Source: Actinomycetota bacterium (lineage in GTDB: Bacteria > Actinomycetota > Actinomycetes > Nanopelagicales > Nanopelagicaceae). Taken from it: a stretch of DNA of 64,000 bases. The notes beneath the pieces are model-generated. The model had not been told where the DNA came from and did no database searches. It saw only the letters and a list, made by a program, of their open reading frames with translations. Position numbers and translations under genes: made by a program. Below are positions 34,723 through 56,603 of the stretch, piece by piece. The first letter of the stretch is position 1, and every line of letters starts with the position of its first letter. Location: NCBI GenBank assembly GCA_947372165.1, contig CANBSP010000004.1, positions 62,001 through 126,000 on the forward strand, written 5' to 3'.

Positions 34723-34980
34723 GTGGCCTCTGCCAATCTAACCGTTGAAGTTGTTTCGCCCGAAAAGCGCGTCTGGTCGGGCGAGGCAACAATGGTTTCA
34801 GCACGCACCCTCGAAGGTGACATTGGAATCTTGCCGGACCATGCCCCACTACTTGGCGTCTTGGTCGATGGTACAGTCTCAATCAAGGCAAGTGATGGCT
34901 CGACTCATGATTTCCAGATGAGTGGCGGCTTTATCTCAGTATCAAAAAATCGCGTATCAGTATTAGGGGAGAGCGCTTAA
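34723..34980 (+). CDS. atpC: ATP synthase F1 subunit epsilon
   Basis: 85 residues, GTG start three bases after atpD. Only the beta-sandwich domain is present (LTVEVVSPEKRVWSGEATMV, GDIGILPDHAPLLGVL, FQMSGGFISVSKNRVSVLGE). The C-terminal helical hairpin that gives inhibition in E. coli is absent, as in several short actinobacterial forms. Last gene of the operon and convergent with the histidine kinase gene, with a small GAGGT-TCT-ACCTC hairpin (34994-35006) at the junction. Confidence 0.93.
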   Translation: MASANLTVEVVSPEKRVWSGEATMVSARTLEGDIGILPDHAPLLGVLVDGTVSIKASDGSTHDFQMSGGFISVSKNRVSVLGESA

Positions 34981-34999: not shown

Positions 35000-36100
35000 C
35001 TACCTCTTCGCTGGGATCCTCACGCGCAAGGTATAGCCTCTATCTACTTCGCTCTCAATCTCTTTCACGCCATCTAGGATCGAACACCAAGCATCGATGA
35101 TGACAGAACCCGCGCCAGGCTTTGGATTGTATGCGCCTGGTCCATTATCGGAAATCTCCAGAAGATATGTATCAGAGTCTGACTTCTGAATCCTTATCAT
35201 CACTTTTGAGGCAGGCCCGTGGGTAATGGCATTGATGATGCCTTGTTCGATGATGCGATAGATACCAAGGGTGAGTTCTTCACCGCACTCATTCACATCG
35301 ACATCAATGAGGATCTGATATTCGACGCCTGATTGATATTGCTCGCAGAGTGTTTCGATTGCCCCTTTCAGTCCTTCTGCCTCTAGGTTTGGCGTGAGGA
35401 TCTGTGAGACCAGTTTGAGATCGATAGCGCGAATCTTCTCCAACCGTGAGATGGCCGGATGCAGTGATTCTTGAACCTCTGCGCCATGGAGAGCGCCGAC
35501 CTTTTGAAGCTTAACATTTACTAATGTGATCTCGGCTTGCACTCGATCATGAATATAGCGAGCAGCTTGATCTCGAATCTCCTCATCAGATTCAACTAAG
35601 GTGCGATATTTACCCTCAAGAGACTCATTTAAATCGTTGACGGTCTTTAACCGTGCCTTAAGTGATCGTAAATTTCGATGAGTAAGAGCAACAAACAACA
35701 CAGTAAACAAGAGTCGAGTGGCAAAGAGAGCGGGGGTATCGTTGGGGCCCCATGCGCGAATCAGAGGTTCTGGCTTATGCGCATTGGAAATGGCGATCGC
35801 CAATGAAACCCCTAACATTCCAATCACAAGCTCGATGAGGTATCTGGCCAAGGAGACTGCCCTACCCCTCCGAGTTAAATGGAGGATGCGAAAGATTGCT
35901 GTTACGAATATCGCCAATAGTAGATTTTCACTCAGGGAGATGAGAATAAAGTGCGTCCGTACCAATCCCGCCGTCATTGAGTAAGAGATAACTCTGCTTT
36001 GAGCGCTATAGAGCGCGATTACCGCAGCAAAAATGAAGGAATAGTTGTAGTCGTAGGGACCTAGCCACTCTTTGAAGCGCTGCCAGCGAGAGGAGGTCAT
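35000..36100 (-). CDS. Membrane sensor histidine kinase (NarL-partner type)
   Basis: 366 residues. Seen: an N-terminal half with about five hydrophobic segments (residues 15-150) and no recognised sensor domain, a linker coiled coil, a dimerisation/phospho-acceptor motif QAARYIHDRVQAEITLV (His at about 185), and an ATPase domain with EQGIINAITHG (N-box) and LEISDNGPGAY (G1). The later GAGSVIIDAWCSILDG lacks a normal GLGL motif. This is the HisKA_3/HATPase type that pairs with LuxR-type regulators. It overlaps the regulator gene by one base. Confidence 0.85.
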   Translation of the reverse strand: MTSSRWQRFKEWLGPYDYNYSFIFAAVIALYSAQSRVISYSMTAGLVRTHFILISLSENLLLAIFVTAIFRILHLTRRGRAVSLARYLIELVIGMLGVSLAIAISNAHKPEPLIRAWGPNDTPALFATRLLFTVLFVALTHRNLRSLKARLKTVNDLNESLEGKYRTLVESDEEIRDQAARYIHDRVQAEITLVNVKLQKVGALHGAEVQESLHPAISRLEKIRAIDLKLVSQILTPNLEAEGLKGAIETLCEQYQSGVEYQILIDVDVNECGEELTLGIYRIIEQGIINAITHGPASKVMIRIQKSDSDTYLLEISDNGPGAYNPKPGAGSVIIDAWCSILDGVKEIESEVDRGYTLRVRIPAKR

Positions 36101-36762
36101 TAACTCTTCACAATCTCCAGATACTTTAAGATCGCCTGAGTCTTGAGATCATCTCCGCCTTGGGCATTAGGGAGCAAGACTGAGTAGGCACGAGATAATT
36201 CTTTGCGAACATAGGCATAACTAATATCGAGCTTCTCAGCGATCTCTTGAATGGTGATTCCCTGGGCGGCTAAAGCAATGATCGAACGCTGACGTGGCGT
36301 GAGGGCAAAGTAGAGGTTGGTCTCGCCTTCTTGTGTAGTGCTTGTTTGGGAGATGAACTCCTCCCAATTCCCTTTTCCATTCGCCGTGGCTTTGATGATC
36401 TGCACATAATCTGCGCTACCCATCTCACCACTTTTTTCAAAGAATGACCATCCAGAACGCATCGCTGGAGGAACTCGGTTCACCATCTTGCGCACGTTGA
36501 ACTGCGAGTAGACGACGATTCCGATGTATTCGTTAATAGATCGAAGCGCGATGCCAAGTTCGATGCCATTGAGCCCATCGCTATCAAGACCAAAATCGAT
36601 AAGAGCAACATCCGCCTTGCGAACCAGCGCCCGGTCGAGCGCCTCGTCGGCATTGGAGAAGGTGCCGATCACTTCGAGTTCGGATCTAGCGGAGAGTGAT
36701 TCCCCCAAGAATTGACGCAACGCTGGATCATTTTCGATATAGATGACTCGAGTTGATCGCAT
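36100..36762 (-). CDS. LuxR/NarL-family response regulator
   Basis: 220 residues from ATG 36762 (MRSTRVIYIENDP), preferred because GAGAGAG lies just upstream. ATG 36777 adds five residues. Seen: receiver with acidic END, phospho-Asp in VALIDFGLDSDGLNGIEL (about residue 53), Lys in SGWSFFEKSGE, and a C-terminal HTH TPRQRSIIALAAQGITIQEIAEKLDISYAYVRKELSRAY, whose core (about 158-190) is the LuxR type. First gene of the reverse operon, divergent from the giant surface-protein gene with 151 bp between them. Control of that gene is an inference from position. Confidence 0.87.
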   Translation of the reverse strand: MRSTRVIYIENDPALRQFLGESLSARSELEVIGTFSNADEALDRALVRKADVALIDFGLDSDGLNGIELGIALRSINEYIGIVVYSQFNVRKMVNRVPPAMRSGWSFFEKSGEMGSADYVQIIKATANGKGNWEEFISQTSTTQEGETNLYFALTPRQRSIIALAAQGITIQEIAEKLDISYAYVRKELSRAYSVLLPNAQGGDDLKTQAILKYLEIVKS

Positions 36763-36880
36763 ATCTAACTCTCTCATGAGGGGAAGGATAGTCGGGGGAG
36801 ATGTGTCACAGTTGTTACATTATTTTTTGAGAGGCTAGCCCACTTTATTCACATAAACCTTCTGGTTGTGACCATATTCG

Positions 36881-36886: not shown

Positions 36887-36913
36887 TAACTCTGGCAAAA
36901 ATATTCTTTGCGC

Positions 36914-39900
36914 ATGAGCCAACTCTCCCTTGTATCTGGTCGCACGATCTCGAAGATCTCCAAGATTCTCGTTCTCTCACTTTTGGCATCCTTGCTCACG
37001 GTCGCATTTGGTGCGATACAAGTTGCTGCTCCATTGCCGGCCCAGGCGGCCGTCACAAATGGAAGTATCGCCTTTGACGGCTCTACTGTTGTAAGTTATT
37101 CAGCTTCACCAATTGGAACAAACGGCACATCCAATGCAACCATCGAATTCTGGATCAAACCTCAAGCAAGTCAAGGCACAGGTTGTTGCAATCGAATTCT
37201 TTCACAGACATTTGGATTTGGAGATGCATCCAACCCGATCATTCTTCGCTACGGCGGTGGAGGATACTTCTTCCTAACTGTTGCTAATAAGTCCGTCACG
37301 ACCTATACCGTCCCTACTCCTGGTGCCTGGAGCCACATAGCTATCGTAGATAAATTGGGAACTTGGCAACTCTTCATCAATGGCGTTTCTATCGAGACAA
37401 TTGCGGCTGCCACGATTGGCACCTCTACCAATCTCTCAAATAGTAATTTCACTCTCGGCGGAGATGTTAGCGGAGAGAAATTTAACGGTTCGATAAGCAA
37501 CTTCCGATATGTGAATGGTTCAGCTCTCTACTGGACGAACAATTTCACACCTCCAACTGCGCCTCTCACAGCCATTTCCGGGACACAGCTCCTTCTCAAT
37601 ACAAACTATGATGGAACGCAAGCAACTGCGCTGGCTGATAGCTCTGGAAATAACGCAACTCCAACAATGAGCGGTGGAACAGGTATTACTGCTTCAAACA
37701 GCTGGCCCACTACGCCTCAGAACATTTCATTTAGTCAGACCGCATACAGTCTTGCTTATGGCAGCACTCAGCAATTAACTCTCAATGGGGTCTTAAGTAC
37801 TGGCGCAAAGAGTTATAGCGCAGGCTCATCCACTGCTTGTACCGTCAGCGCAACTGGATTAGTCACGGTCACTTCTGGGTCTGGAACATGTTCAATCTCA
37901 GGCAGCGTTGCAGCAGACTCCACCTATTCTTTGGCAACGACAGGGACTCCGGTCACGGTGACTGTTTCGCCAGCAGCTCAAGCGACACTTACCGCGTCAG
38001 CGTCAATCACAAGCAGTTCGTGGAGCGGATCCGCCTACACCGCCGTACCGAGTTTCAGTACTTCTGGGGGATCGGGCACTGGTGCGGTCACCTATACGGT
38101 TGCCTCTGGTACTGCTACGGGCTGCTCATTGAACAGTAACGCTGCAAATGCGACTCTTACCGCCTCTTCACCAGGTACATGTACTGTCACCGCCACAAAA
38201 GCAGCGACAACTCTCTATACCTCAACGACCGCCACGCTGACCTTCACCTTCTCCAAATCAGCCAGCACAATAGGCCTCACTCTCGCTCAATCGAGCATTG
38301 CATATGGAACTCAAAATACGTTGACCGCCACCGTCTACGCCTCGTCAGCTACCGGATCTGTCTCTTTTCAGAGTAATGGCATCCCAATCTCGGCCTGTTC
38401 TAGCGTCGCCATTTCTTCTGGTCAGGCACTGTGTTCGACATGGGTCCCGAATGCTGGGACATATTCCTATTTAACCGCTGTCTACTCGGGAGATTCGAAT
38501 AACGTAACTTCAACCTCTTCATCCACTTCGCTCACGGTTTCAAAAGCGACCCTAACGGTCGCGCCAGATGCAAAGTCAGTCTCATTCGGTTCTGCTGCCC
38601 CGGCCTATACCTTTACCTATCAAGGATTCGTGAATGGTGAAAGCGCAGGTTCGACCTCGTTTACCACAGGGTTGACCCCGCCAACCTGCACAAGTAGCAA
38701 CCCTGTCTATTCGACGACGACTTCTGTCTCAATCTCTCCCACCATTTCTTGCTCTGGTGGTACGTCAACAAACTACTCCTTTATTACAACAGCTACATCG
38801 GCGCTCACAGTCACTCAAGCAGCCTCCACAGTCTCCCTGACCCCAAGCACTAATAGCCCTGTTTACGGTTCAAGCTTCACACTCACCGCCACATCTTCGA
38901 CTCCTGCAAATGTTGTCTTCAATGCAGGTGGTTCACCAATTTCTGGGTGTGCCTCTGTCGCAACGACTACCGTTTCGCCATACACCGCGACCTGTACCTG
39001 GGTGATGACATCTTTGGCGACTACGCAATACACAGCAGTTTCGACGCCAACAAATACCAACTTTGCTTCTCAGGCTTCAAATACTATTGGCATTACTGCT
39101 GGAAAAGCAGCGATCACAATCACCCCGACATCGAATCAAAGCAAGACCTACGGGACTGCTGATCCAGCACTTACATACGCGATTACCTCGGGCGCCCTCA
39201 TCGGTGCTGACACTCTCTCAGGATCACTCACGTATACGAGTGCAGGCCTTAATACCGCTGTTGGAAGTTATGCGATTCTGATAGGCACTTTGGCAAATTC
39301 AAATTACACAATCACACTTGCTTCGGTGAATTTCACAATCACCGGCGCATCTCAGGGTGCAATCTCATTGTCCACTACTTCTGCGACGTGGTCAGCGACC
39401 CAGAAGACTATAGCTCTCAGTGGTACTGGCGGATCAGGTACTGGTGCATATACATATGCATTAGATGCGCCTAACTCAGCCGCTGGATGTTCGGTCGCAA
39501 GCTCGACACTGACGTACACGACAGCCGGTACTTGTAGCGTTTCAGTCACACGTGCGGCGAGTGGCAACTACGCAGCAGTCACTTCACCAGTCTCCGTTGC
39601 GATCTCGAAGGCCTCTCAGACGATTACATTCACTCAGATCGCATCCCAAGTCTTCTCCGTCTCAACTTTAACGGCCAGTGCGACCGCGAGTTCATCTCTC
39701 ACACCAGTCGCCTTTACTTCGACTACGACATCTGTTTGTACAGTCTCTGGCTCGACGATCACAATGGTCTCTGCAGGCACATGTACTTTGAGCGCCGATC
39801 AAAGTGGAAATACAAATTACCTGGCAGCGACTACGGCTTCAATGAGCTTTACAATCACCGCAGGAAGCCAGGGTGGATTTACCCTTTCGCAGCAGGCATC

Positions 39901-42900
39901 TAGCGCCAATAGTTTGAGCGCGACCCCGAATCTCTCTACTTCGGGGGGATCAGGAACTGGCGCAGTCACGTATTCAACGAGCAACGGAACAGCGACTGGC
40001 TGTCAGTTGTCATCGACCACCTCAGCATCTGCGACGCTGAGCGCATCTACTCCAGGTACCTGTCTCATCACAGCGACTAAGGCGGCCGATAGTGCCTATA
40101 GCTCCGCTACCTCAACCGCGCTTACTTTCACCTTCAACGGCAATCCAGCGAACGCTCCTATCAACCTCAGCGCAACACCATCCAGTGGATCTGCGGCTCT
40201 TACGTGGACGCATGTAGATACAACGGGCGCATCAGCCATCTCAACATTTAGCGTCCAGTATGCAGCTAATGCTGGCGCTTGGCAGACCTTTACCCATACC
40301 GCTTCGACGCTTGATTCAATTACGGTAACAGGTCTGACCAATGGCACAACCTATTCATTCCGTGTTGCAGCAGTTACAAATGCCGGGGCTGGCACATACT
40401 CTTCAACAGTGACAGCAAAGCCCCTTGGCTTAGCTTTCACACCAGTATTTGGAACCCCCACTTCGACAGCAGATGGCTTCACAGTAAATATCACGAACTG
40501 GAACCCTGCCTTTGTCTGGGGTAATGCTCAGGTCACAAGCGGATCAGGAACTGTAACGGTGGGGACTGGTGCAAACTCGATCCTTCCTATGACTGTCACA
40601 GGTATGACACCAGGGTCCTTGGCAACAATCTCCATTACCGCTTCACAGACTAGTTACTCGGATGGCACCGCATACCAATCGGGTAGCGCATTGAAGGCGG
40701 CTCTCATTCCAGTAACGACGGGATTAGTGACGAGCACAAGTGGAATCACTGCGACAATCTCAAACTTCGACTCTTTATTCACGTGGAGCGCTTCCGCGAC
40801 ATCTGGCGCAGCAGCAGTCAGTGCATCTGGAGCTGTTGCCGTCACCGGTGTTAATCCGCTGACGACACTTACGCTCACAATTACCTCGACTCGGTCAGGT
40901 TATGCCAGTGGAGTTGAAACGAGAACAGCGACAACTTTGCAGCTCCTTCGTATCTTCTACGATGGAAACGGTAATACGGGCGGTTCGGCGCCAACTGATG
41001 CCACGACCTACCAATCCGGTGCAACAGGCACGGTTCTTGGAAATACTGGCTCGCTCACAAAGTCGGGTTATACCTTCATAGGTTGGACGTTAAATTCAGC
41101 GAACACTGGCCAGGTTTATTCTGCAGGAAATATCTATTCGTTGGGACTGGTTGGTATCACGCTCTACGCCAAGTGGACAGCTATTCCTTATACCGTCACC
41201 TATCAAAGTACAGATGCAACCTCTGGAGTGGCGCCACTTGATCAGAACGCCCAAGGCATTCAGAACATCTACAACATAGGCCAGAACGCGCCGATTCTTG
41301 CCAACTCATCCTTGGTTCGCACTGGTTACTCCTTTGGCGGCTGGGCAGATAACTACCCCCGTACCGGAACCATCTATCAAAGCGGTGGAATCTATCCAAT
41401 AACCACAAATAACGTAGCGCTCTATCCAATTTGGACTCCTAACACCTACACGGTCACCTATAACGTCAACAGTGCGGCCGGATCTCCAAGCAACAGTTCT
41501 GACTCTTACACAACAGCATCAACTGCGATCACATTGCCAACAGTTGGCACGATGGCAAAGACGGGTTACGCATTCACTGGGTGGGGCCGCACTGCGGTCT
41601 CAACTCCGATTACCGGGACGTTGACTGTTACTACCGACACCACGCTCTATGCCCAATGGACACTGCAAAGTTATGCCGTGACCTACCTGCCAGGCACCTT
41701 TGGCACAGGTACTGTTCCAACCCAAGCAAGCGTTGCCTATGGTTCAAGCTTCACACTTGCCTCACCAACTGGCCTCACGGGCACCGATGGCACGAACTCT
41801 TACGCATTCGTTGCATGGAGTGATGGCAGCGGCACAACATTTGCACCTGGGAAGACTCTACTTATGGGTGCTGCTCCTCTCACTTTGACTGGGTTGTGGA
41901 CGCGGATCTATAACGTCACATATTCCTTTAACGGTGGATCAGTCTCGACTCCGATCGCTGATCAACAGAAGATTAGCGGTGAAACCATCACTGTCACTTC
42001 AGAGATTCCGACTCGTACTGGTTATACCTTCACAAATTGGCTCGATCAATCATCGCTCTCAGCGGTTGCAGGGGATTCATATACTGTTTCCGATACCCAT
42101 TACTTGATCTACGCCCAATGGAGTGCGATCTCTTATTCAGTCAGGTATGACACATCAGGTGGAAGCACTGTGCCTGCTGAACCAAGCCATACGATTGGTG
42201 AAATTTTCACAACTGCAACACTTCCAACAAAGAATGGTTATGACTTTGCCGGATGGAGTGATGGAGTAACGACTTATGCAGCCGGATCGCCATACCAAGT
42301 TGGGGCAGCCAATGTCTCACTTATCGCGCTCTGGACTCCTCAGGTCTACGACGTAAGTTACGACTTCAATGGTGGATTTGGATCAGCAATATCTCCAACG
42401 CACTACACCTTTGCGACACCTGCCATCACACTGCCAACCTCTGGGCCAACCCGTCCAGATTTCACCTTTAGCGGATGGTCAACGAGCACAACCGGAGCAG
42501 GTGTTGGGGCAACCTTTACCCCAAGCTCTTCAATCACTCTCCATGCTGTTTGGGTCTCATCTGTCTACCGTCTGATCTTTGATGCAGGTAGTGGTTTCAC
42601 CGATACCTCGACCGCAAAGGTGACGATCGGCCAATCGCTGACGCTTCCAACAGGCACTCGGACAAATTACAACTTGGCGGGATGGTCAACCCAGCAAAGT
42701 GGTGGGACGCTCGTTTCCGGCACGTACACACCGACTGCAGATGCCACGATGTATGCGCAGTGGACTCTGAAGGTCTATGTAGTGACATTCAATGGCAATG
42801 GCGGAACCGCATCAACAGGAAGCGCCTCGATGACTGCGGGCACAACATCACCTGTCACTCTGACGACGGCGGCCAGGTCAAATTACGTCTTCAATGGTTG

Positions 42901-44464
42901 GTACTCAGATCCACAGTCGGGCTATCTCTTAGGTGATGCCGGCTCGAGTTATCTCCCAACAAACTCCATCACTGCCTATGCGCACTGGATTCAAGCATCT
43001 CTTGCTGGCATGGGTGCGGCAACACAGATCGCACAAGTTACCGTCCATGCCGGGTATGAGAACTCATTCACAGCTGGCAGTAATGGCAGCACAGTCGCCC
43101 TCTACTATCCAGCAGATTCTTTGCCTGATGGTTCCATCATCACGGCTTACCTGGAGAACTCGACAACGCGAGCCAGTACCCTAATCACAACGCCATCGAA
43201 CTTGATTCTCTCTCTGATTGTGGCATGGGTTGCACCAGATGGAACCGTCCCTACCACTGCTACCGGTAAGCCGATTACGTTGACAATCTCTAACCCCAAC
43301 ATCACAGCAGGATCCAAGGTCTACGGGTATCTCAGCGGTGTGATGACCTATCTTGGTATGGCAGCTGTTGATGGTTCTGCCGTCATAACAATCTCTCAAG
43401 ACCCAGTTCTTGTTGTTGCTATCACAACCCCGGATGCACCAACTGGTGTGACAACTGTCCTCAACGGATCTACCGGAGCGACCATCTCGTGGAGCGCTCC
43501 TGCGGCATCAGGTGGGTCAGCAATCACAAGTTATGTTGTAACTTCAAGTAGTGGTCAGAGTTGCACAACCACGACCACATCCTGTTCGATTACGGGATTG
43601 ACAGCTGGAAGCAATTACACATTCACTGTTGTCGCAACCAACTCGCTGGGTACCAGTTCGGTAAGCACGGCATCTTCTTCGCTGACGATTACCCCGCCCG
43701 TTGTAGTCGTCGATAATTCAGCAGCTATCGCAGCGGCTGCAGCCCAAGCGGCCGCCGATGCAGCCGCCCAAGCAGCGGCAGTGAAGGCTGCTCAAGAAGC
43801 AGCAAAGGTACTTGCAGATAAGCAGACCGCCGATGCAGCAGCAAAGGTACTTGCAGATAAGCAGGCCGCCGATGCAGCCGCTAAGGCACTTGCCGATAAG
43901 CAGGCCGCCGAAGCTGCAGCGAAAATCCTTGCTGACCAAGAGGCTGCTGCTCTTAAGGCGGCCCAAGAGAAGATGGCAGCTGATGCGAAGGCTCTGGCTG
44001 ATGCAAAGGCAGCCGCTGATGCCGCTGCAGTGAAAGCGGCACAGGATGCGGCAGATGCTTCGGCTAAGGCAGCAGCAGAGTTGCAGGCAGCAAAGGATGC
44101 AGCAGCTGCGCAAGCAGCAGCGGCAGCCTTAATCAAGCCGGCAGTGACGCTCTACTCGGTCACTCCAAAACTCACGCTGAGCGCCTATGGCACTGCATAT
44201 CTGCAGAAATATGTTCGATCACTGAAGAACGGTGCAACCGTCACCTGTGTCGGCTATATCTATAAGAAGGGCACCACACTCGCAAAGGCAACAGCTCTTG
44301 CCAAGAGTCAAGCCACCGCTGTCTGCGCACTGATTAAGAAGAGTAATAAGACTCTCAAGACAACGATCTCACTTCTGGATTCATCCAAGGCCCCTAAGGC
44401 TGCGGTGGGGTCAAAGTGGGTTGCGGTGAGCTATCGGATCGATAGCTTTAAAGCTAGGGGTTAA
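36914..44464 (+). CDS. Giant modular secreted surface protein (LamG, Ig/MBG, FN3, nine InlB-type repeats, OmpA-like end)
   Basis: 2516 residues from ATG 36914 (TTG 36908 adds two). Domains seen in order: signal peptide (about 1-45, ending AQA-AV); LamG/concanavalin-like domain (about 48-225, with IEFWIKPQAS and FINGVSIETI); a long series of Ig-like and MBG units (about 235-1070, each with paired Cys such as ACTVSATGLVTVTSGSGTC); FN3 (about 1078-1170); two 80-residue beta repeats (1172-1343); nine InlB B-type repeats (about 1344-2026), each ending in a Trp box such as LYAKW, YPIW, YAQW; a beta domain; a second FN3 (about 2175-2265); an Ala/Lys/Asp-rich helix with a 13-residue repeat (2270-2405); and a C-terminal 105 residues resembling OmpA (LSAYGTAYLQKYVRSL ... 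LAKSQATAVCALIKK). No LPXTG signal. Likely a wall-bound adhesin or polymer binder. Divergent from a two-component system. Confidence 0.87.
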   Translation: MSQLSLVSGRTISKISKILVLSLLASLLTVAFGAIQVAAPLPAQAAVTNGSIAFDGSTVVSYSASPIGTNGTSNATIEFWIKPQASQGTGCCNRILSQTFGFGDASNPIILRYGGGGYFFLTVANKSVTTYTVPTPGAWSHIAIVDKLGTWQLFINGVSIETIAAATIGTSTNLSNSNFTLGGDVSGEKFNGSISNFRYVNGSALYWTNNFTPPTAPLTAISGTQLLLNTNYDGTQATALADSSGNNATPTMSGGTGITASNSWPTTPQNISFSQTAYSLAYGSTQQLTLNGVLSTGAKSYSAGSSTACTVSATGLVTVTSGSGTCSISGSVAADSTYSLATTGTPVTVTVSPAAQATLTASASITSSSWSGSAYTAVPSFSTSGGSGTGAVTYTVASGTATGCSLNSNAANATLTASSPGTCTVTATKAATTLYTSTTATLTFTFSKSASTIGLTLAQSSIAYGTQNTLTATVYASSATGSVSFQSNGIPISACSSVAISSGQALCSTWVPNAGTYSYLTAVYSGDSNNVTSTSSSTSLTVSKATLTVAPDAKSVSFGSAAPAYTFTYQGFVNGESAGSTSFTTGLTPPTCTSSNPVYSTTTSVSISPTISCSGGTSTNYSFITTATSALTVTQAASTVSLTPSTNSPVYGSSFTLTATSSTPANVVFNAGGSPISGCASVATTTVSPYTATCTWVMTSLATTQYTAVSTPTNTNFASQASNTIGITAGKAAITITPTSNQSKTYGTADPALTYAITSGALIGADTLSGSLTYTSAGLNTAVGSYAILIGTLANSNYTITLASVNFTITGASQGAISLSTTSATWSATQKTIALSGTGGSGTGAYTYALDAPNSAAGCSVASSTLTYTTAGTCSVSVTRAASGNYAAVTSPVSVAISKASQTITFTQIASQVFSVSTLTASATASSSLTPVAFTSTTTSVCTVSGSTITMVSAGTCTLSADQSGNTNYLAATTASMSFTITAGSQGGFTLSQQASSANSLSATPNLSTSGGSGTGAVTYSTSNGTATGCQLSSTTSASATLSASTPGTCLITATKAADSAYSSATSTALTFTFNGNPANAPINLSATPSSGSAALTWTHVDTTGASAISTFSVQYAANAGAWQTFTHTASTLDSITVTGLTNGTTYSFRVAAVTNAGAGTYSSTVTAKPLGLAFTPVFGTPTSTADGFTVNITNWNPAFVWGNAQVTSGSGTVTVGTGANSILPMTVTGMTPGSLATISITASQTSYSDGTAYQSGSALKAALIPVTTGLVTSTSGITATISNFDSLFTWSASATSGAAAVSASGAVAVTGVNPLTTLTLTITSTRSGYASGVETRTATTLQLLRIFYDGNGNTGGSAPTDATTYQSGATGTVLGNTGSLTKSGYTFIGWTLNSANTGQVYSAGNIYSLGLVGITLYAKWTAIPYTVTYQSTDATSGVAPLDQNAQGIQNIYNIGQNAPILANSSLVRTGYSFGGWADNYPRTGTIYQSGGIYPITTNNVALYPIWTPNTYTVTYNVNSAAGSPSNSSDSYTTASTAITLPTVGTMAKTGYAFTGWGRTAVSTPITGTLTVTTDTTLYAQWTLQSYAVTYLPGTFGTGTVPTQASVAYGSSFTLASPTGLTGTDGTNSYAFVAWSDGSGTTFAPGKTLLMGAAPLTLTGLWTRIYNVTYSFNGGSVSTPIADQQKISGETITVTSEIPTRTGYTFTNWLDQSSLSAVAGDSYTVSDTHYLIYAQWSAISYSVRYDTSGGSTVPAEPSHTIGEIFTTATLPTKNGYDFAGWSDGVTTYAAGSPYQVGAANVSLIALWTPQVYDVSYDFNGGFGSAISPTHYTFATPAITLPTSGPTRPDFTFSGWSTSTTGAGVGATFTPSSSITLHAVWVSSVYRLIFDAGSGFTDTSTAKVTIGQSLTLPTGTRTNYNLAGWSTQQSGGTLVSGTYTPTADATMYAQWTLKVYVVTFNGNGGTASTGSASMTAGTTSPVTLTTAARSNYVFNGWYSDPQSGYLLGDAGSSYLPTNSITAYAHWIQASLAGMGAATQIAQVTVHAGYENSFTAGSNGSTVALYYPADSLPDGSIITAYLENSTTRASTLITTPSNLILSLIVAWVAPDGTVPTTATGKPITLTISNPNITAGSKVYGYLSGVMTYLGMAAVDGSAVITISQDPVLVVAITTPDAPTGVTTVLNGSTGATISWSAPAASGGSAITSYVVTSSSGQSCTTTTTSCSITGLTAGSNYTFTVVATNSLGTSSVSTASSSLTITPPVVVVDNSAAIAAAAAQAAADAAAQAAAVKAAQEAAKVLADKQTADAAAKVLADKQAADAAAKALADKQAAEAAAKILADQEAAALKAAQEKMAADAKALADAKAAADAAAVKAAQDAADASAKAAAELQAAKDAAAAQAAAAALIKPAVTLYSVTPKLTLSAYGTAYLQKYVRSLKNGATVTCVGYIYKKGTTLAKATALAKSQATAVCALIKKSNKTLKTTISLLDSSKAPKAAVGSKWVAVSYRIDSFKARG
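43799..43954 (+). repeat. 39-bp in-frame tandem repeat, four copies
   Basis: Encodes four 13-residue units of the type AAKVLADKQ-x-ADA inside the giant surface protein. Copies 1 and 2 are nearly identical in DNA, later ones drift. The unit should form a continuous charged alanine helix. Confidence 0.8.
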
Positions 44465-44483
44465 TAGGGGTTAATAGGGGTTA
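44455..44483. repeat. 10-bp tandem repeat TAGGGGTTAA, 2.9 copies
   Basis: The first copy contains the TAA stop codon of the giant gene (44462-44464), and the array runs into the intergenic space ending TTAGCCCAC. It resembles in position and unit length the arrays at 1764 and 19350. Confidence 0.85.
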
Positions 44484-44553: not shown

Positions 44554-44817
44554 ATGTGGATCTATAGCTCTATCGTTGAAAAGCTGACACGAAATTCATT
44601 TGCGGCAGTAGAGAGACATAATTATGAAGAGGTATTGAAGGGCGTTGCCGCCAAGAATCTCACTCATCGCTTTGCTGGCCCAAACTCCCTCGGGGGAGTA
44701 CGCCACGATAAAGAGGCTTTGGGACGCTGGTTTAGAAGAGTGGGAACTGTATTACCTCACTTAAAGTTTGAGGTTACCTATGTTGTGGAAGCTAAAGCAC
44801 CACAAATCCAGAGTTGA
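44554..44817 (+). pseudogene. Truncated NTF2/SnoaL-like protein
   Basis: 87 residues with a good ribosome site (AAAGGAGA before ATG). The text YEEVLKGVAAKNLTHRFAGPNSLGGVRHDKEALGRWFRRVG, in its parts, matches the N-terminal half of SnoaL-like NTF2-fold proteins (helix 1-2 and strand 1). The protein stops after LKFEVTYVV, before the remaining strands of the barrel, and no other frame downstream continues them: the next bases already encode the signal peptide of another protein. It therefore looks like a gene cut at about 44790 by a rearrangement. The stop overlaps the next start as TTGA. A functional short protein cannot be excluded. Confidence 0.6.
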
Positions 44818-47006
44818 TCACCAGACTTGCACGGCTCGCTCTCTTCTCGATCCTCTCCACCTTCCTCATCTCTCTGACTTCATCGCCCGCTTTCGCCGCA
44901 CCGGGTAGCCTCGATCTGACCTTTGGAAGCAGCGGCTTCTCGGCAAGTTCTGTGGGTTCGAGAAATATCATCTCTTCAATTGCACTCGATAGTTCGGGGC
45001 GCATTCTTGCTGGTGGTTCGGCTGTTTTGGGAGCAAACTTCACCTTCTCTCTCGCTCGATATAGCGAGACCGGCACACTCGATACATCCTTTGGCACATC
45101 AGGTTTCACAAATACCGCCATCGGTACCTATGACCAGATCACCTCGATCACGGTCGATAGCTCTGGGCGAATTCTTGCTGCAGGCAGCGCCACGATTGGT
45201 GGTTCGCTCTATTTTGTTCTGGCGAGATATCTCACCACTGGCTCACTCGATACATTCTTTGGATCGGGCGGGACGACGAAGATTGGAGTGAGTTCACGAG
45301 ATTTTGTCCCAGCAATCACTCTCGATCGATCCGGTCGGATCTTGGCGAGCGGTTACTCTCTAAGCAGCGGAGCGCATTTCCGACTCGCTCGATTCCTCGA
45401 TTCAGGAGCGATTGATACAACCTTTGGGGTGACAGGTTTTGTGGCGACTGGCGCACAATTTCGTGCGGTGACAGTGGCTGCCGATGGAACTATCTTCGCG
45501 GCAGGCACATCGGCCACTCCCAATGGCCGCTTTATCCTCTCGAAATACTCTGCTGATGGGATTCTCGATACCTCATTTGCGACCGCAGGTTCTACCTCGG
45601 TGACCCCCGGAACAAGTGATCAGATTTATTCACTTGCTATAGATATCAGCGGCCGCATCGTCGTTGGCGGTAGCGCAACAGTCGGTGGATCGATGCGCTT
45701 TGCGCTGGGACGATTTCTCGCAACGGGTGAGCTTGATAGTTCATTCGGAACTGCTGGCTTCAATACGATCACTAGCGGGACAAGTGATTCCATCGCGTCG
45801 ATTACTATCGAAAGCTCGGGCAGAATATTCATGGGCGGCCAAAGTACTATCAATGGCTCGCATCGGTTAACGGTGGCCGCCTATCTGCCAACAGGAGTTC
45901 TAGACACCTCTTTTGGAAATTCTGGCTTTACCACCGAAACGAGTGGAACAACCGATTATCTCAATTCGATTCTTCTCGACCCAACTGGAAGATTGGTTGC
46001 CGGGGGAAGTTCGGTGATCGCCGGAAAGCAATCCTTTATTCTGGCTCGATATCTCACCCGCTATCTCTCGCAATCTGCTCTCTCAATCGCCACAACCTCG
46101 GGTGCTTATGGAACCCCGTTAGCACTTTCAACAATAGGTGGGAGTGGAACTGGCGCTCTGACTTACTCCACCTCCACGCCTGGGTGCTCGATTTCAAGCG
46201 ATGCAATCTTGACCGAGACTGGGACGCTCTCGTGCACCGTTACCGCCTTAAAGGCAGCAGATGCTACGTATTCAGAGATCACGAGCCCCCCAACAGTAAT
46301 CACCTTGGCGAAGGCGATTTTGATGATCAGCCCATCCGACACCTCGACCGTTTACGGCACACCCGTTCGGTATGAATTCTCCTACCAAGGATTTGTCAAT
46401 GGTGATTCAGCCACTGCTACATCATTCACTACTGGATTAATCCCACCCACCTGCGGGATTTCTGAGACGGCAACTGCAACCGTTGCTAACTCACCACTCA
46501 CCATTACCTGTAGCGGTGGATCCTCAGCCTTGTATACCTTTGCCTATTCGCGAACTGCGCACCTGACAATAAATCCGGCGCCTACAACCGTTGTGGTTCC
46601 GCAAGTTGTTGTTCCACCCGTTGTAGTGCCACCCGTTGTAGTGCCACCCGTTGTAGTGCCACCCGTTGTAGTGCCGCCAGTTGTTGTACCACCGGTTGTA
46701 GTGCCACCGGTTGTAGTGCCACCGGTGATTATCATTCCGCCACTCTTGATTCCTCCAGATGTAGTGCCGCGAGAAATCTTGGCCCCTGCTAAAAGCCGCC
46801 CAAGCACGGCCCTCACTGTCATTGATTTCAAAACTCGCAGCGCATTCTTGGCGGCACAGCGCCAGCTCTTGATTGCACAAGCTGCCGCACGCGCAGCAAA
46901 GGCTCGAGAGCTCCAGATACTCCAGATGATCACATCATCTCAGGGTGCGAAGTCGAAGAGCGCTTGTGATGCAGTGAACTCACTGCTCAAGAAATTAAAG
47001 ATTTAA
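44814..47006 (+). CDS. Secreted delta-60 repeat protein with MBG domain and Pro/Val stalk
   Basis: 730 residues from TTG 44814, which overlaps the stop of the preceding fragment. No other start would keep the signal peptide (ITRLARLALFSILSTFLISL, cleavage near AFA-APGS, about 28). Seen: seven delta-60 units of about 55 residues (30-415), each with a box like LDTSFGTSGF plus an ILAGGS-type strand, predicted as a beta propeller. An Ig/MBG part follows (about 420-585) with YQGFVNGDSATATSFTTGL, closely like the giant protein. Then comes a VVVPP stalk (597-640) and a basic Ala-rich C-terminus (660-730). Likely exported and wall-attached. Ligand unknown. Convergent with murA. Confidence 0.85.
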   Translation: MITRLARLALFSILSTFLISLTSSPAFAAPGSLDLTFGSSGFSASSVGSRNIISSIALDSSGRILAGGSAVLGANFTFSLARYSETGTLDTSFGTSGFTNTAIGTYDQITSITVDSSGRILAAGSATIGGSLYFVLARYLTTGSLDTFFGSGGTTKIGVSSRDFVPAITLDRSGRILASGYSLSSGAHFRLARFLDSGAIDTTFGVTGFVATGAQFRAVTVAADGTIFAAGTSATPNGRFILSKYSADGILDTSFATAGSTSVTPGTSDQIYSLAIDISGRIVVGGSATVGGSMRFALGRFLATGELDSSFGTAGFNTITSGTSDSIASITIESSGRIFMGGQSTINGSHRLTVAAYLPTGVLDTSFGNSGFTTETSGTTDYLNSILLDPTGRLVAGGSSVIAGKQSFILARYLTRYLSQSALSIATTSGAYGTPLALSTIGGSGTGALTYSTSTPGCSISSDAILTETGTLSCTVTALKAADATYSEITSPPTVITLAKAILMISPSDTSTVYGTPVRYEFSYQGFVNGDSATATSFTTGLIPPTCGISETATATVANSPLTITCSGGSSALYTFAYSRTAHLTINPAPTTVVVPQVVVPPVVVPPVVVPPVVVPPVVVPPVVVPPVVVPPVVVPPVIIIPPLLIPPDVVPREILAPAKSRPSTALTVIDFKTRSAFLAAQRQLLIAQAAARAAKARELQILQMITSSQGAKSKSACDAVNSLLKKLKI
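46606..46729 (+). repeat. 15-bp in-frame tandem repeat encoding VVVPP
   Basis: About eight copies of a unit like GTTGTAGTGCCACCC, several identical at DNA level, make a stiff Pro/Val linker before the C-terminus of the delta-60 protein. Exact copies imply recent expansion or contraction. Confidence 0.88.
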
Positions 47007-47027: not shown

Positions 47028-47047
47028 ACCTTACAAAGTGTGAAGGT
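47028..47047. terminator. Possible two-way terminator between delta-60 gene and murA
   Basis: ACCTTACA and TGT-G-AAGGT can pair around AAG with one bulged G. The stem lies exactly between the convergent stops (47006 and 47047). No long T-run follows on either strand, so strength is doubtful. Confidence 0.35.
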
Positions 47048-48309
47048 TAAACCCTCGTGACATCGGCACCAAGGCTACGCAAGTCCTCAGCGAAATCTGG
47101 ATATCCGCGATCGATGTGGAAACCATCTTCAACAACGGTGATGCCCTCGCTCACGAGCCCAGCCAGAACCAGTGCGGCTCCTGCGCGGATATCTGTAGCA
47201 AGTACAGGAGCGCCAGAGAGTTGAGGTAGGCCATTGACCGCAGCATGATGGCCATCGACAGTGATAGTTGCACCCAGGCGCTTGAGCTCATTGACGAACA
47301 TAAATCTGCCTTCGAAGACATTCTCGGTGACAAGTGCATGTCCTTGGGCGATGGCATTCATGCAGATCGCCATTGGCTGTAGATCAGTGGGAAATCCCGG
47401 GTAAGGCAGAGTCGCAACATCTACTGCAGAGGGCCTGCGGTCCATCTTTACGCGCAAGCCGCCCGGGGTAGTCGTGATGACTGCGCCTGCTGCCACCAAT
47501 TTATCTAACGGGATCTCAAGATGATCGGGACGGCCACCCATGATGGTGATATCACCCTGTGTCATCACCGCGGCGAAGGCCCAGGTACCTGTAACGATTC
47601 GATCAGGAAGCGTGGCATGTGTTGCGGGGGAGAGGCGATCCACGCCATCGATGGTGATGGTGGATGTTCCCAAGCCTTCGATCTTCGCACCCATCGTGAT
47701 TAAGTACTCACCAATATCTGCAATATCAGGTTCACGAGCAGCGTTAGCGATTACCGTGCGACCCTTTGCAAGTACTGCAGCGGTCATAATGTTCTCGGTC
47801 GCACCAACGCTTGGGAATTCCAATTCAATAGTTGCGCCCGTGAGTCCATCTGGCGCCTTCGCTAATACATAACCATGTTCGGAGTGAACTTCTGCGCCGA
47901 GCGCCTGAAGGCCTTGGATATGAAAATCTAAACCACGAGATCCAATTGCATCCCCACCGGGCAGCGCAACATCGGCTGCGCCAACTCGAGCGATCAGTGG
48001 TCCAAGGACATTGATCGAGGCGCGCATCTTGCGAACCAAGTCGTAGTCGGCTTTATGACCTGGGGTTTCTGGGACATCGATGGTCAGTGAATGAGCTGAA
48101 GTGTCATGTTCTACTGTGCAACCAAGACGCTCGAGGAGTTCGGACATGATCTCAACATCGGCAATGTGGGGCACATTGAGAAGCGTGTTCTTGCCAGGTG
48201 CGAGCAATGATGCCGCCATCAATTTAAGCGCCGAATTCTTAGCGCCGCGAACCTCGACCGAACCTACGAGACGAGCGGGCCCGACCACGCGAAAGCTATC
48301 GCCTGTCAT
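47047..48309 (-). CDS. murA: UDP-N-acetylglucosamine 1-carboxyvinyltransferase MurA (Cys to Asp form)
   Basis: 420 residues from ATG 48309, chosen because GGAGGG lies just before it. ATG 48324 adds five residues. First enzyme of peptidoglycan precursor synthesis, using PEP. Seen: [17 protein letters not shown] (Lys22/Asn23 equivalents), [19 protein letters not shown], and the loop [19 protein letters not shown], in which Asp stands where E. coli MurA has Cys115. [18 protein letters not shown] and the closing [17 protein letters not shown] are normal. The Asp form is known from mycobacteria and is insensitive to fosfomycin. Confidence 0.96.
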
Positions 48310-48390
48310 CTGCCCTCCGTTCATCGATCTACCCTGATCCTGACTCAGGCTTAAGTGGTCGTATTCTAGTTGTTCGCCTAGGCTGAACCC

Positions 48391-48966
48391 ATGGTTAACC
48401 TCACGCGCATCTATACAAAAACCGGTGACGATGGCACGACATCCCTAGGGGATATGTCTCGTACCTCAAAGAATGACCCGCGGCTTGAGGCCTATGCCGA
48501 TGTCGATGAGGCGAACTCATCCATCGGTGTCGCGCTCTCCTTGGGGCAGATCGCTGATGAGGCAATTGTGAAGTTGCTCATTCGTATTCAGAACGATCTC
48601 TTCGACGTCGGCGCAGATCTCTGCACGCCAGTCATCGATAATCCTGAATTTGAACCACTTCGCGTCCTTGAATCTCAGGTCACATACCTTGAGAGCCAGA
48701 TTGATCATTACAACGAATCACTTGAACCGCTTCGTTCCTTCGTCTTGCCATCCGGAACTCCTGCAGCATCACTTCTGCATGTGTCACGTACCGTCGTTCG
48801 CCGAGCCGAACGTTCTACCTGGCATGCAATCCACTCCTTCGGCGGTGGCGTCAATCCATTGACGGCAAAATATCTCAACCGCTTATCTGATCTGCTCTTT
48901 GTCTTGGCTCGTGTTGAGAACAAATCCATCGGTGACCAACTCTGGGTCCCAGGAGCAAACCGCTAA
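48391..48966 (+). CDS. PduO-type ATP:cob(I)alamin adenosyltransferase
   Basis: 191 residues. Makes adenosylcobalamin from cob(I)alamin. Seen: [23 protein letters not shown] (TKTGDDGTT, about residues 6-14), [29 protein letters not shown], and [17 protein letters not shown] (about 132-148, ATP and cobalamin contacts). Family members are trimers. Its presence implies use of B12, but no B12-dependent enzyme is in the window. Starts 82 bp from the murA start, divergent, so the two promoters share this space. Confidence 0.95.
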
Positions 48967-48968
48967 CT

Positions 48969-49895
48969 TTAGAAGTGGTTTGGTTCCATCGCGTAAGTGA
49001 AACTTGGAATCGTTTCGGTAGGGGCTTGGGTCCAACAAGACACGGTTATGCCGCCAACGCTGAGATTGTAATTGGTCAGTTCGGTCGCAATCCGAACTGA
49101 TGTGGCATCCGTGAGCGCAACTGCCTGATCAGAGGTGATCTGACCGGATGCTAATTGCGCCGCAATCGATTTACTTTCAGCAGCGCTGAGGGCCGCGACA
49201 ATGTGATTGATCTTTGCACCCGCAATCTGGGTGAGGGACTTTCCAGAGGCGATCTGGTTATAGAAACTCGTGGTTGAGATTCCGAGAATGCTCAAGATCG
49301 TACTTTCATGAGGAATGAGCGGTTCTTTGCTCACGAGAATCACAGAGAGAATGCTCTTCGCTTTAGTTGCCGCAGCGAGCGTACGCAGAGATCCGTACTC
49401 GATCATTGCCGTGACATCGGAAGGATTTGGACCGTAAACCTTTGAATTAATCTCCCAATATTGGCAATCACTATCTGATCCAACATAGACGGCGCCACAC
49501 GCCATCGCCGTGCACTGCTTGACGGTCGTAGCAAGCGCAGTCTTGGCGCTGAGCAGACTGACAAGTTGAGATCCTGATGGAATATAGGCATAGACACCAT
49601 TATTGGCTGCATACCCACGAGGTGGCCAGACGATCTTTGGCGGCGGGACCACAGTCTTCTTCTTGACTACTGGCTTCTTCACCACGGGTTTCTTCACAAC
49701 TGGCTTCTTCACAACTGGCTTTTTGACGACAGGTTTCTTCACGGTCGTCGCTTTAGCAGTTGGCTTTACAGTTGGCGTTGGAGTTGCCTTTGACGTTGGC
49801 TTTGGAGTTGCCTTCGCTGTTGGTGTGGCAGCGTATGAGACTCCTTGGGTGGTCAAAGCTGCGAGGAGTGCGACTGCAAGAACTCTTCTTCTCAT
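48969..49895 (-). CDS. Secreted protein with KKPVV repeat stalk
   Basis: 308 residues from ATG 49895, which overlaps the stop of the ABC permease gene (ATGA) with GAAGGA beside it. GTG 49907 is an alternative. Seen: basic start RRRVLAVALLAALTTQG (signal peptide, cleavage near SYA-AT, about 22), a Thr/Pro/Lys-rich segment with ATPKPTSKATPTPT, six KKPVV pentapeptides (about 53-82), a VPPPKIVWPPRGY turn, and a C-terminal domain of about 210 residues with three Cys pairs-like positions (KQCTAMACG, SDCQYW, SCWTQ). The last domain is not recognised. Coupled to an ABC-2 exporter. Confidence 0.78.
   Translation of the reverse strand: MRRRVLAVALLAALTTQGVSYAATPTAKATPKPTSKATPTPTVKPTAKATTVKKPVVKKPVVKKPVVKKPVVKKPVVKKKTVVPPPKIVWPPRGYAANNGVYAYIPSGSQLVSLLSAKTALATTVKQCTAMACGAVYVGSDSDCQYWEINSKVYGPNPSDVTAMIEYGSLRTLAAATKAKSILSVILVSKEPLIPHESTILSILGISTTSFYNQIASGKSLTQIAGAKINHIVAALSAAESKSIAAQLASGQITSDQAVALTDATSVRIATELTNYNLSVGGITVSCWTQAPTETIPSFTYAMEPNHF
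49660..49745 (-). repeat. 15-bp in-frame tandem repeat encoding KKPVV
   Basis: About six copies of a 15-bp unit (plus strand like GACAACTGGCTTCTT) inside the secreted stalk protein. The design is the same as in the VVVPP array of the delta-60 gene: one pentapeptide per 15 bp, with several exact DNA copies. Confidence 0.88.
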
Positions 49896-50674
49896 TCCTT
49901 CGCCCACTTAAATGTTCGGATGGAGAAGTACGTCCCGAGAATGAGCCAAGCAATCAAGATCAGCGCGATCTTTCCGATCTCCCAACTATGTCCAGCCTCT
50001 TTGAGCGCGAAGGAGTCAGGGAGAAAAACCGAACGCATTCCCTGTGTGAGCCATTTGAGTGGGAATACTGCGGCAATATCTTGCATCCACTTTGGCAGGT
50101 CAGAGAAGACGAAGAAGACGCCAGAGATAAATTGAAGAATAATCACGATTGGGGAGACGGTCGCTGATGCGCCTCGACCACTCTTTGGGATAGATGAGAA
50201 GGCAATACCTAAGACTGTCGAACAAGCACTACCGAGAAGAATGAGCCAGGTGAATCGAAGCCAGAGAGTTGCTGATTTGGGGAGGTGAAGGCCAAAGAGA
50301 AGAGCACCAAAGCCAAGTAAGAGGGCTACTTGAAAGAGCATCGCCGCGGTGACGACAATTGCCTTACCGATGAAGTACGAGATTGGAGAGAGTGGGGTTC
50401 CGCGTAGTCGCTTGAGAGTGCCGAGATCACGTGACATCGGGATAGAGATTGCCAGTTGTTGGAAGCCAGTATTTACCAAGCCCGAGGCGACCATGCCGGC
50501 TACGAAGTACTGACTAAAAGTCACGCCAGGTGCGATCGTATTCTTGAAGACCGAGCCGAAGATAAAGAGCAGGATCACTGGGAAGGCGAGGGTGAAGACG
50601 ACAGATTCGCGCTGGCGCAAGAACTCTTTAATCTCTAATCCGCCTCGACGTAGACCAAGCCTCACGATATTCAT
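49892..50674 (-). CDS. ABC-2 type exporter permease
   Basis: 260 residues, six membrane segments (first at about residues 28-48, FTLAFPVILLFIFGSVF). Seen: ABC-2 motifs GLVNTGFQQLAISIPMSRDLGTLKRLRGTPL, whose core MSRDLGTLKRLRGTPLS (about 78-94) is the DrrB/NodJ-type elbow helix, and a final helix ending FKWAKE. Works with the ATPase encoded 5' of it (4-bp overlap). Substrate unknown: lipid, glycan or drug are all possible. Confidence 0.9.
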   Translation of the reverse strand: MNIVRLGLRRGGLEIKEFLRQRESVVFTLAFPVILLFIFGSVFKNTIAPGVTFSQYFVAGMVASGLVNTGFQQLAISIPMSRDLGTLKRLRGTPLSPISYFIGKAIVVTAAMLFQVALLLGFGALLFGLHLPKSATLWLRFTWLILLGSACSTVLGIAFSSIPKSGRGASATVSPIVIILQFISGVFFVFSDLPKWMQDIAAVFPLKWLTQGMRSVFLPDSFALKEAGHSWEIGKIALILIAWLILGTYFSIRTFKWAKE

Positions 50675-51528
50675 AACTGGCCAATCATTCCAAGATAGAT
50701 ATCTTCCAGTGATGGTCGAGTAATAGCGAGATCGGGAATCTCTCCGCCGATTCGGGCAGATAGGGCTTTGAGAAATTCAGTAGGGGTCTGCGTACTCTCG
50801 CTGCACAACTTGCCACCTTCACTCCAGGTGACTAGAGCGGGTGCGGTGGCGCGTCCTCCAAGTGTCTCTGGAGTGGCAACCTCAAGGACTTGACCCTTGT
50901 TGATGACCGCAACGCGGTCGGCAAGCGCCTCGGCCTCATCGAGGTAATGGGTCGTTAAGAGGATTGTGGTTCCTTCATCGCGAAGAGTGCGGATCAGGCC
51001 CCAAAAAGCTCGACGAGCTTCGGGATCAAATCCAGTTGTTGGTTCATCGAGAAAGAGAATTTCGGGAGATCCAATGATTCCAAGTGCAACGTCGAGTCTG
51101 CGGCGCTGACCACCCGAGAGCGTGGCAACTTTTGCCGAAGCCTTATCACTGAGGCCTACGAGGCCAATCACTTCATCAGGGTTCTTTGCCTTAGCGTAGT
51201 AATGGGCGAAGTGATGGACAGTTTCTTTCACAGTGAGATCTGGTGCATCTGCTGCGCTTTGCAGAACGATTCCGATTCGATTGCGCCAGGTGCGATCTCC
51301 CGATGATGGATGTGATGGATCTTCTCCTAAAACAAGAACATCCCCGGCATCTCGGGTGCGATAACCCTCGAGAATTTCAACGGTCGTTGTCTTGCCCGCG
51401 CCATTAGGTCCGAGGATTGCGAAGATCTCACCACGGTGAACTTCGAGATCAAGACCTGCGACTGCATCCTTGCCAGCATATGTTTTACGCAATCCCGTTA
51501 CCGAGATGGCAGCGTGCTGAGATGTCAT
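50671..51528 (-). CDS. ABC exporter ATPase (DrrA/CcmA class)
   Basis: 285 residues. Seen: Walker [16 protein letters not shown] (about residues 38-52), signature [18 protein letters not shown] (about 135-152), Walker [23 protein letters not shown]-loop [13 protein letters not shown], and a C-terminal part with [11 protein letters not shown]-like end (here [15 protein letters not shown]), the usual mark of ABC-2 exporter ATPases. First gene of the reverse operon. Its start is only 28 bp from the divergent zinc-ribbon gene. Confidence 0.94.
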
Positions 51529-51556
51529 ATCCCCATAATAGCCTCATAATTAGGGG

Positions 51557-51928
51557 GTGAGCCCGCGCAGAAAACCCCAGAGTGATCCCAACGCGCGAGG
51601 TGCTAAAGCTGGAAAAGCCGGTAAAGCCGGTAAGGGTGGTAATTCAGGGGGAGAAGAGCGAAGCATCGAAGATATTGGGCGCAGCTTTGAGAGCACCGAA
51701 GAACATGCTGATGGTATCTATAAAGTTCGCCGAATTACCGGTTCGAGTTCGAATAAGCCGTATCGCTGTCCAGGCTGTGATCAATTAATTCCTACTGCTA
51801 CACCCCATGTAGTCGCATGGCCAGAAGATGACATTGAAAGTCGTCGCCATTGGCATACGCCTTGTTGGGCAAAGAAAGATCAACGTCGACCACGCACCGA
51901 ACGAACCCGGAATGCACCTCGATTTTAG
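51557..51928 (+). CDS. Conserved actinobacterial small protein with CxxC...H...C motif
   Basis: 123 residues, GTG start. Seen: Gly/Lys/Ala-rich basic N-terminus (AGKAGKAGKGGNSGG), a middle YKVRRITGSSSNKPYRCPGC, and CPGCDQLIPTATPHVV with HWHTPCWAK after it (about residues 73-108), which can bind zinc through Cys2-His-Cys, then a basic tail. Proteins of this shape are often named ATP/GTP-binding protein in actinobacteria without evidence. The role is unknown; nucleic-acid binding is plausible from charge and zinc ligands. Confidence 0.75.
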   Translation: MSPRRKPQSDPNARGAKAGKAGKAGKGGNSGGEERSIEDIGRSFESTEEHADGIYKVRRITGSSSNKPYRCPGCDQLIPTATPHVVAWPEDDIESRRHWHTPCWAKKDQRRPRTERTRNAPRF

Positions 51929-51938
51929 ATTTTAAAGA

Positions 51939-53402: not shown

Positions 53403-53424
53403 GAAGTAACTGTAAACTCTTTGC

Positions 53425-54135: not shown

Positions 54136-54143
54136 CGAGCGAA

Positions 54144-55280: not shown

Positions 55281-55328
55281 AGTTCAATTTTAACGTGCTT
55301 TGGAGATGGAATGGGGGAGAATGTACCC

Positions 55329-56573: not shown

Positions 56574-56603
56574 TAAGAAGGAAAAGTTTGGCAAGATATC
56601 GCC

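Follow-up and report, generated by a model that had tools for sequence, protein, structure and literature searches.

A putative giant surface protein with a predicted OmpA-derived C-terminal domain in an accessory two-component cassette of the Nanopelagicales

Introduction

Within a 64,000-nucleotide stretch of a Nanopelagicales genome (contig CANBSP010000004.1, positions 62,001 to 126,000; hereafter the window), a gene between atpC and murA encodes a giant protein that, judging from sequence and modelled structure, is probably a surface-display protein, regulated and exchangeable, whose OmpA-type anchor is constant and altered. The gene is part of a larger unit made up of a two-component pair, an insertion slot and an exchangeable arm. 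The genome spans 1.36 Mb in 21 contigs and is 94% complete, and most of the data used for comparison are metagenome-assembled genomes (MAGs), some with mixed strains.

Results and Discussion

Domain anatomy of the giant protein

The original prediction described a 7.5-kb gene for a protein of 2516 residues, and the gene is a single intact open frame (Table 1). An in-frame TTG lies at 36908, upstream of the ATG at 36914; since a TATTCT hexamer six bases upstream of this ATG is kept across related loci, the ATG is the probable start codon and the start is probably leaderless. The signal peptide is recognisable in the sequence as proposed. The LamG domain exceeds the cut-off for PF13385 when the N-terminal segment is scored alone (57.5 bits against 27.6) and is unlisted when the whole protein is scored. 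"About a dozen" Ig/MBG units is a fair count of sandwich-sized units, only three of which reach curated cut-offs; further Big_2-, PKD- and Big_3_5-like segments score weakly against Pfam. Both expected FN3 domains were found by PF00041. Of the nine B-repeats originally counted, eight are scored by PF09479 (E<1e-3, seven of them above cut-off), and a likely ninth, at about 41657-41908, agrees with the array by its spacing.

Between the B-repeats and the second FN3 domain sits a conserved all-beta domain, here called the pre-anchor domain. Its predicted model (pLDDT 79) had no significant match in the PDB by structure comparison, and a weak match to UNC5b was set aside. The Ala-rich helix occupies residues 2268-2408 with an Ala content of 54%, and its claimed 13-residue period is confirmed by autocorrelation peaks at 13 and 26 (0.45 and 0.47) that exceed the maximum of 0.43 among 500 shuffles. 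The DNA beneath it carries a 39-bp tandem repeat (3.2 copies, 90% match). A separate, perfect 10-bp tandem repeat, TAGGGGTTAA (2.9 copies, 44455-44483), spans the stop codon of the giant gene.

Table 1. Features of the atpC-murA slot and of the giant gene, in window coordinates
Feature	Position	Strand	Evidence
atpC, ATP synthase epsilon subunit, left slot border	34723..34980	+	reading frame; homologues 56-92% identical, same place
Histidine kinase, membrane-spanning N-terminus, IHDRVQ phospho-acceptor region, HATPase_c	35000..36100	-	PF02518 E 6.9e-6
Response regulator, LuxR/GerE-type HTH	36100..36777	-	PF00072, PF00196
Operator-like box TGTCACAGTTGTT	36804..36816	+	TGTCACANNTGTT before regulator in 12/12 loci
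Inverted half-site TGTGAC	36867..36872	+	61-63 bp past box in seven loci
-10-like TATTCT	36902..36907	+	33-35 bp past TGTGAC in five loci
Giant surface protein (putative) gene	36914..44464	+	one open frame, 2,516 codons, 0 internal stops
Signal peptide, residues 1-45	36914..37048	+	sequence pattern LLASLLTVAFG...AQA/AVTNG (cleavage AQA/A)
LamG / ConA-like lectin domain	37106..37516	+	Laminin_G_3, PF13385, E 2.2e-15
Big_3_5 Ig-like domain	38276..38542	+	PF16640 E 5e-14
MBG_2 domain 1	38552..38791	+	PF18676 E 5.5e-9
MBG_2 domain 2	39113..39337	+	PF18676 E 4.7e-16
FN3 domain 1	40154..40417	+	PF00041 E 4e-14
InlB-type B-repeat array, 8 scored units and a likely ninth	40952..42985	+	PF09479
All-beta pre-anchor domain, without Pfam family	42986..43430	+	33-68% identity to 15 relatives
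FN3 domain 2	43433..43672	+	PF00041 E 7.5e-14
Ala-rich helix, 141 aa, 13-residue period	43715..44137	+	tandem-repeat and autocorrelation analysis
Predicted OmpA-derived C-terminal domain, 108 residues, Tyr42/Gln58 replacing Asp/Arg, 2 invariant Cys	44138..44461	+	relatives, model, alignment
Small SnoaL-like frame	44554..44814	+	PF12680 E 9e-4, below cut-off
Second secreted protein: DUF5122 propeller, MBG_2, PPVV/VVPP repeats	44814..47006	+	domain scans
murA, right slot border	47047..48324	-	PF00275 E 9e-99

The protein had been described as free of a sortase signal, and this holds for both protein and genome: the sequence has no LPXTG-type tail, and no sortase (PF04203) was found in the 94%-complete genome by a search to which control genomes respond. 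Gram-positive giants with InlB-type B-repeats, MBG and LamG domains share the B-repeat and Ig/MBG stalk and the lectin-like N-terminal domain. Unlike them, the protein described here lacks LPXTG and sortase, and its base is a putative OmpA-derived domain behind an Ala-rich helix. Domain II of TolA is a long Ala-rich charged helix that bridges an envelope layer. The likeness of the giant's helix to it would be compositional only, as the giant has neither the TolA C-terminal domain nor its membrane anchor.

The C-terminal domain has a predicted OmpA-type fold but lacks the canonical ligand residues

A model of the C-terminal domain (CTD) was built by AlphaFold from 16 relatives, using an alignment that contained no OmpA sequence (pLDDT 76, a moderate confidence; order strand-helix-strand-helix-strand-strand). 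In a Foldseek comparison with the PDB, the best match was the peptidoglycan-binding domain of SiiA (E 1.1e-4, TM about 0.6), and the other top matches, FopA1, MotB, PA0833, Pal and OmpA, are all OmpA-like; the model thus agrees with the OmpA-like C-terminus of the original prediction. This match is not a habit of the method, since the same procedure on the pre-anchor domain, whose model is about as confident, returned nothing significant.

Detecting this kinship took profile and fold methods, because the domain is invisible to simpler searches: PF00691 gave zero matches to eight CTD members at E up to 10, and nothing was found for the CTD in Pfam, among PDB sequences or in canonical OmpA by direct BLASTP. 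Direct profile-profile comparison with canonical OmpA returned a probability of only 41%, and a class-wide profile search with the CTD produced weak matches (E 1e-5 to 5e-4) outside its own family. Two of these matches (L160 and L161; E 1e-5 and 5e-4) are OmpA-like domains that carry the GYTD/GYAD Asp, the RA Arg and the NRR motif, and they share with the CTD the two cysteines that are invariant across its relatives. These bridging domains fix the register of the CTD/OmpA alignment and, with the joint alignment, support descent from OmpA. Taken with the modelled fold, they indicate that the CTD is of OmpA fold and ancestry.

In the joint alignment, the OmpA Asp falls on Tyr42 and the Arg on Gln58, each invariant in 16/16 CTDs, and the NRR motif is absent. 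Both Asp and Arg are kept in 20/20 canonical OmpA ends of the order. In A. baumannii OmpA, Asp271 and Arg286 hold diaminopimelate (PMC5974059). Compared with the PF00691 fold of OmpA, Pal, MotB and SiiA, the CTD has the same order of strands and helices, the same C-terminal position and alignable GY-x-x and LAKxxA segments; it differs in its Tyr/Gln pair, its two invariant cysteines, the missing NRR motif and the missing Pfam match. A 246-residue frame in the 1.6-Mb genome of another family (L162, G645) retains both cysteines and the Arg but no longer has the OmpA-motif Asp, making it a possible intermediate between OmpA and the CTD by sequence. The disulphide enzyme VKOR was not found in the 94%-complete assembly, so a Cys37-Cys63 disulphide is at most a possibility.

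The altered residues bear directly on what the domain does. The lost ligand residues would be explained if the CTD were no wall anchor but bound some other protein or a glycan during assembly or export, or if the protein were released; the two invariant cysteines and the invariant residues on the domain's surface point to a specific partner, and a second copy in the genome extends about 80 aa C-terminal to the CTD. We consider this unlikely, however: the long Ala-rich helix that leads straight into the CTD suits an envelope-spanning spacer, no sortase was found in the genome, and nothing else in the sequence can be recognised as an anchor. It is quite improbable that the CTD is an ordinary OmpA C-domain, a non-covalent binder of peptidoglycan as originally supposed, with diaminopimelate as its ligand: the predicted fold, the homology to OmpA domains and a C-terminal position like that of the canonical OmpA end in many large proteins of the order all fit, but Asp has become Tyr and Arg has become Gln in 16/16, NRR is lost, and the domain lies below Pfam detection. 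On these replacements an OmpA-derived CTD fails the ligand-residue test. The original prediction therefore appears to survive with one change, an OmpA-like end for which diaminopimelate binding is not to be assumed.

The arm varies while the base is constant

One comparison is with G017, whose atpD and murA are 99% and 95% identical to those of the window. The last 849 residues of its giant are 95.5% identical to the window's, whereas the outer part, on another contig, aligns at only about 25%; as the G017 pieces lie on separate contigs, their union into a single gene is inferred. In G003, the last 179 residues are 98% identical and the arm is otherwise different. The Ala-rich helix is longer in G017 than in the window, and shorter in G003. 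Among alleles, the arm contains LamG, LRR_5 with LamG, Cadherin-like with LRR_5, an Lcl_C-like segment, or MBG/Ig only, with TIG domains in addition in the isolate LanE-43, while the pre-anchor domain, the helix and the CTD are kept. With arms that vary over a base that stays 95-98% identical, the pattern agrees with a protein whose exposed end is exchanged and whose base is held constant.

The giant gene lies in an insertion slot between atpC and murA

In 16 loci of the genus, atpC and murA are convergent, with stop codons -18 to +8 bp apart; in the window the two genes are separated by 12,066 bp. The insert carries a histidine kinase (HK) and a response regulator (RR) on one strand; the giant gene, the SnoaL-like frame and the second secreted protein run divergently from them. 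No mobility genes were recognised within the insert. The second secreted protein has its own signal peptide, a TTG start and no OmpA-type end.

The order atpC-HK-RR/giant-murA recurs in G253, from another genus (L150), and in G017, where it was assembled from three contigs; in L045, murA-giant-RR-HK can be followed as far as the contig end. Other slots are filled differently. In G304 the HK-RR pair is joined by an LRR_5 protein and a propeller protein, in G230 it stands without cargo, and in G006 a CTD giant is present but the pair is not. The two secreted proteins that replace the giant in G304 (L141:475-4344) have C-terminal ends that are alike. A 1.3-kb bacteriorhodopsin-type gene (PF01036 E 1.8e-40) occupies the slot in two genus members (G023, L095; G021, L096), which marks the atpC-murA junction as a general insertion hotspot. 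Filled and empty junctions are both present in G003, G008 and G019, most simply because strains are mixed within those MAGs.

HK-RR also adjoins surface-protein genes outside the slot (G253 contig C9, G257, G141 and G296); in G123, the contig breaks off ahead of any visible cargo. G253 holds two complete HK-RR/CTD-giant cassettes (L140, L150), only one of them in the atpC-murA slot, which indicates that the cassette was duplicated or transferred as a unit. An assembly artefact is unlikely, as the arrangement is common to several independent assemblies and the CTD is present in a complete genome. We read the giant as the probable cargo of an accessory cassette for surface display, inserted between atpC and murA.

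A two-component pair and a shared promoter element accompany the cargo

Kinase orthologues adjoin surface-protein genes in other genomes, and regulator orthologues beside the kinase are 62-90% identical; the pair stands beside surface-protein genes wherever a neighbour is visible, except in the cargo-free G230. The box TGTCACANNTGTT lies ahead of the regulator in 12/12 kinase/regulator loci from three genera, loci that are related and so do not represent twelve independent events. It occurs once in the window against 0.03 expected. The distance from the box to the inverted TGTGAC corresponds to about six helical turns, and in five of the seven TGTGAC loci TATTCT follows, with the start codon about six bases on. 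In the rearranged locus of G296, where the kinase and not the regulator adjoins the giant, there are two boxes, one before the regulator and one about 100 bp before the giant's start; the corresponding distance in the window is 98 bp, like that of the second G296 box.

As a test of two-component control, conserved HK-RR adjacency and a shared promoter element are thus both present. The simplest reading of these sequences is that the response regulator directly controls both its own gene and the cargo, and that the cargo transcript would be leaderless. A genome-wide search returned four matches to the box against zero for a reversed control; a wider regulon is not claimed, as the other three matches appear inside genes. 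A matching of kinase sensors to arms was considered and dropped, since the sensors of G003 and G017 are similar and their arms different.

The giant gene is accessory, and CTD loci are consistent with the Nanopelagicales

The CTD was found in 14/296 genomes of the order, in 4/17 genera. A scan of 84,980 species genomes gave 14 CTD loci, all consistent with Nanopelagicales, with one organism labelled Streptomycetaceae. Named relatives are freshwater actinobacterial MAGs (one labelled Ca. Nanopelagicaceae) and the cultured isolate LanE-43 ('Ca. Planktophila landstejnensis'), which encodes a 3,608-residue protein with the same CTD and for which two lytic phages have been isolated (PMC10202952). 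No CTD relatives were found in the viral_contigs and phages collections and the giant protein had no PHROG match, on which grounds a phage origin was rejected. In the searchable part of the open-access literature, no description of these proteins was found for the order.

The genome's second CTD copy is on a 3,809-residue protein and, like the giants of G006 and LanE-43, lacks the kinase/regulator pair. A second CTD subtype (L037:2707-14136, L046) has about 80 further residues C-terminal to the CTD, and the L037 giant adjoins an fpg/mutM-type DNA glycosylase gene. A third giant (L036/L039; G000 contig C5, about 48500-59400), a frame of about 3,632 residues, begins with glycine-rich domains and also contains 14 B-repeats and an Ala-rich helix of great length; it has no CTD match. 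A match to the CTD on contig C17 (E 0.016) proved to be an unrelated membrane protein.

Canonical OmpA ends are commoner than the CTD, occurring in at least 69/296 genomes of the order, a lower bound because the tally missed the genome's own. That end belongs to a 1,766-residue FN3-type protein encoded just downstream of secA (L038:3287-8587), with the GHTD Asp, Arg and NRR behind a long Thr-Pro linker. Such large OmpA-ended proteins are common in the order; they resemble the giant in being secreted Ig/FN3-type proteins with an OmpA-type end, and differ in keeping Asp, Arg and NRR and, in L038, in having the Thr-Pro linker in place of an Ala-rich helix.

Broken copies of the giant gene were not encountered among its relatives. 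A key role in a streamlined cell, as first suggested, is weakened: with the CTD in 14/296 genomes and nothing in the slot in most members of the genus, the gene counts as accessory. It is highly improbable that the cassette is neutral or selfish DNA, inserted where the space between two convergent genes permits it and with no selected adhesive role. The slot is empty in 16 genus loci, holds rhodopsin in two and other cargo in G304, and the insert has no recognised mobility gene, but long intact frames in many species, a regulator and box conserved over three genera and an invariant CTD core argue for selection.

Proposed mechanism and significance

The sequence anatomy, the predicted fold, the lost residue pair, the slot, the box and the mosaic arms are established by the analysis; surface location, wall contact, ligand, adhesion and activation are what we infer for the regulated surface-display protein favoured here. 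The giant would leave the cell by Sec. Its base, comprising the pre-anchor domain, FN3, the Ala-rich helix and the putative OmpA-derived CTD, would be the constant part held in the envelope; the helix, about 21 nm long if straight, would span the wall, and the B-repeat/Ig stalk would raise an exchangeable adhesive end, here LamG. Since the CTD has kept the OmpA fold and lost the Asp/Arg pair for meso-diaminopimelate, it probably has another wall or envelope ligand, or a different grip on peptidoglycan. The membrane kinase would sense a cue and the divergent response regulator would turn the giant gene on, binding TGTCACANNTGTT and the inverted TGTGAC and so activating a leaderless promoter. 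More tentatively, the CTD could be a new type of envelope anchor: with an invariant Tyr/Gln pocket and two invariant cysteines in place of the diaminopimelate pair, this OmpA-derived domain would take another ligand and act as a fixed socket for arms that can be swapped, within a cassette of streamlined freshwater actinobacteria that a two-component pair switches.

Nanopelagicales are abundant in fresh waters worldwide, and their genomes are small (PMC10202952). A giant protein that is probably switchable, at a defined slot, would offer a handle on how these cells make contact with particles, grazers and phages, and the idea is testable in culture because the cultured LanE-43 carries a CTD protein. 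For the OmpA fold, generally taken as the mark of a diaminopimelate binder, the CTD raises the question of whether it can be remodelled to accept a different ligand.
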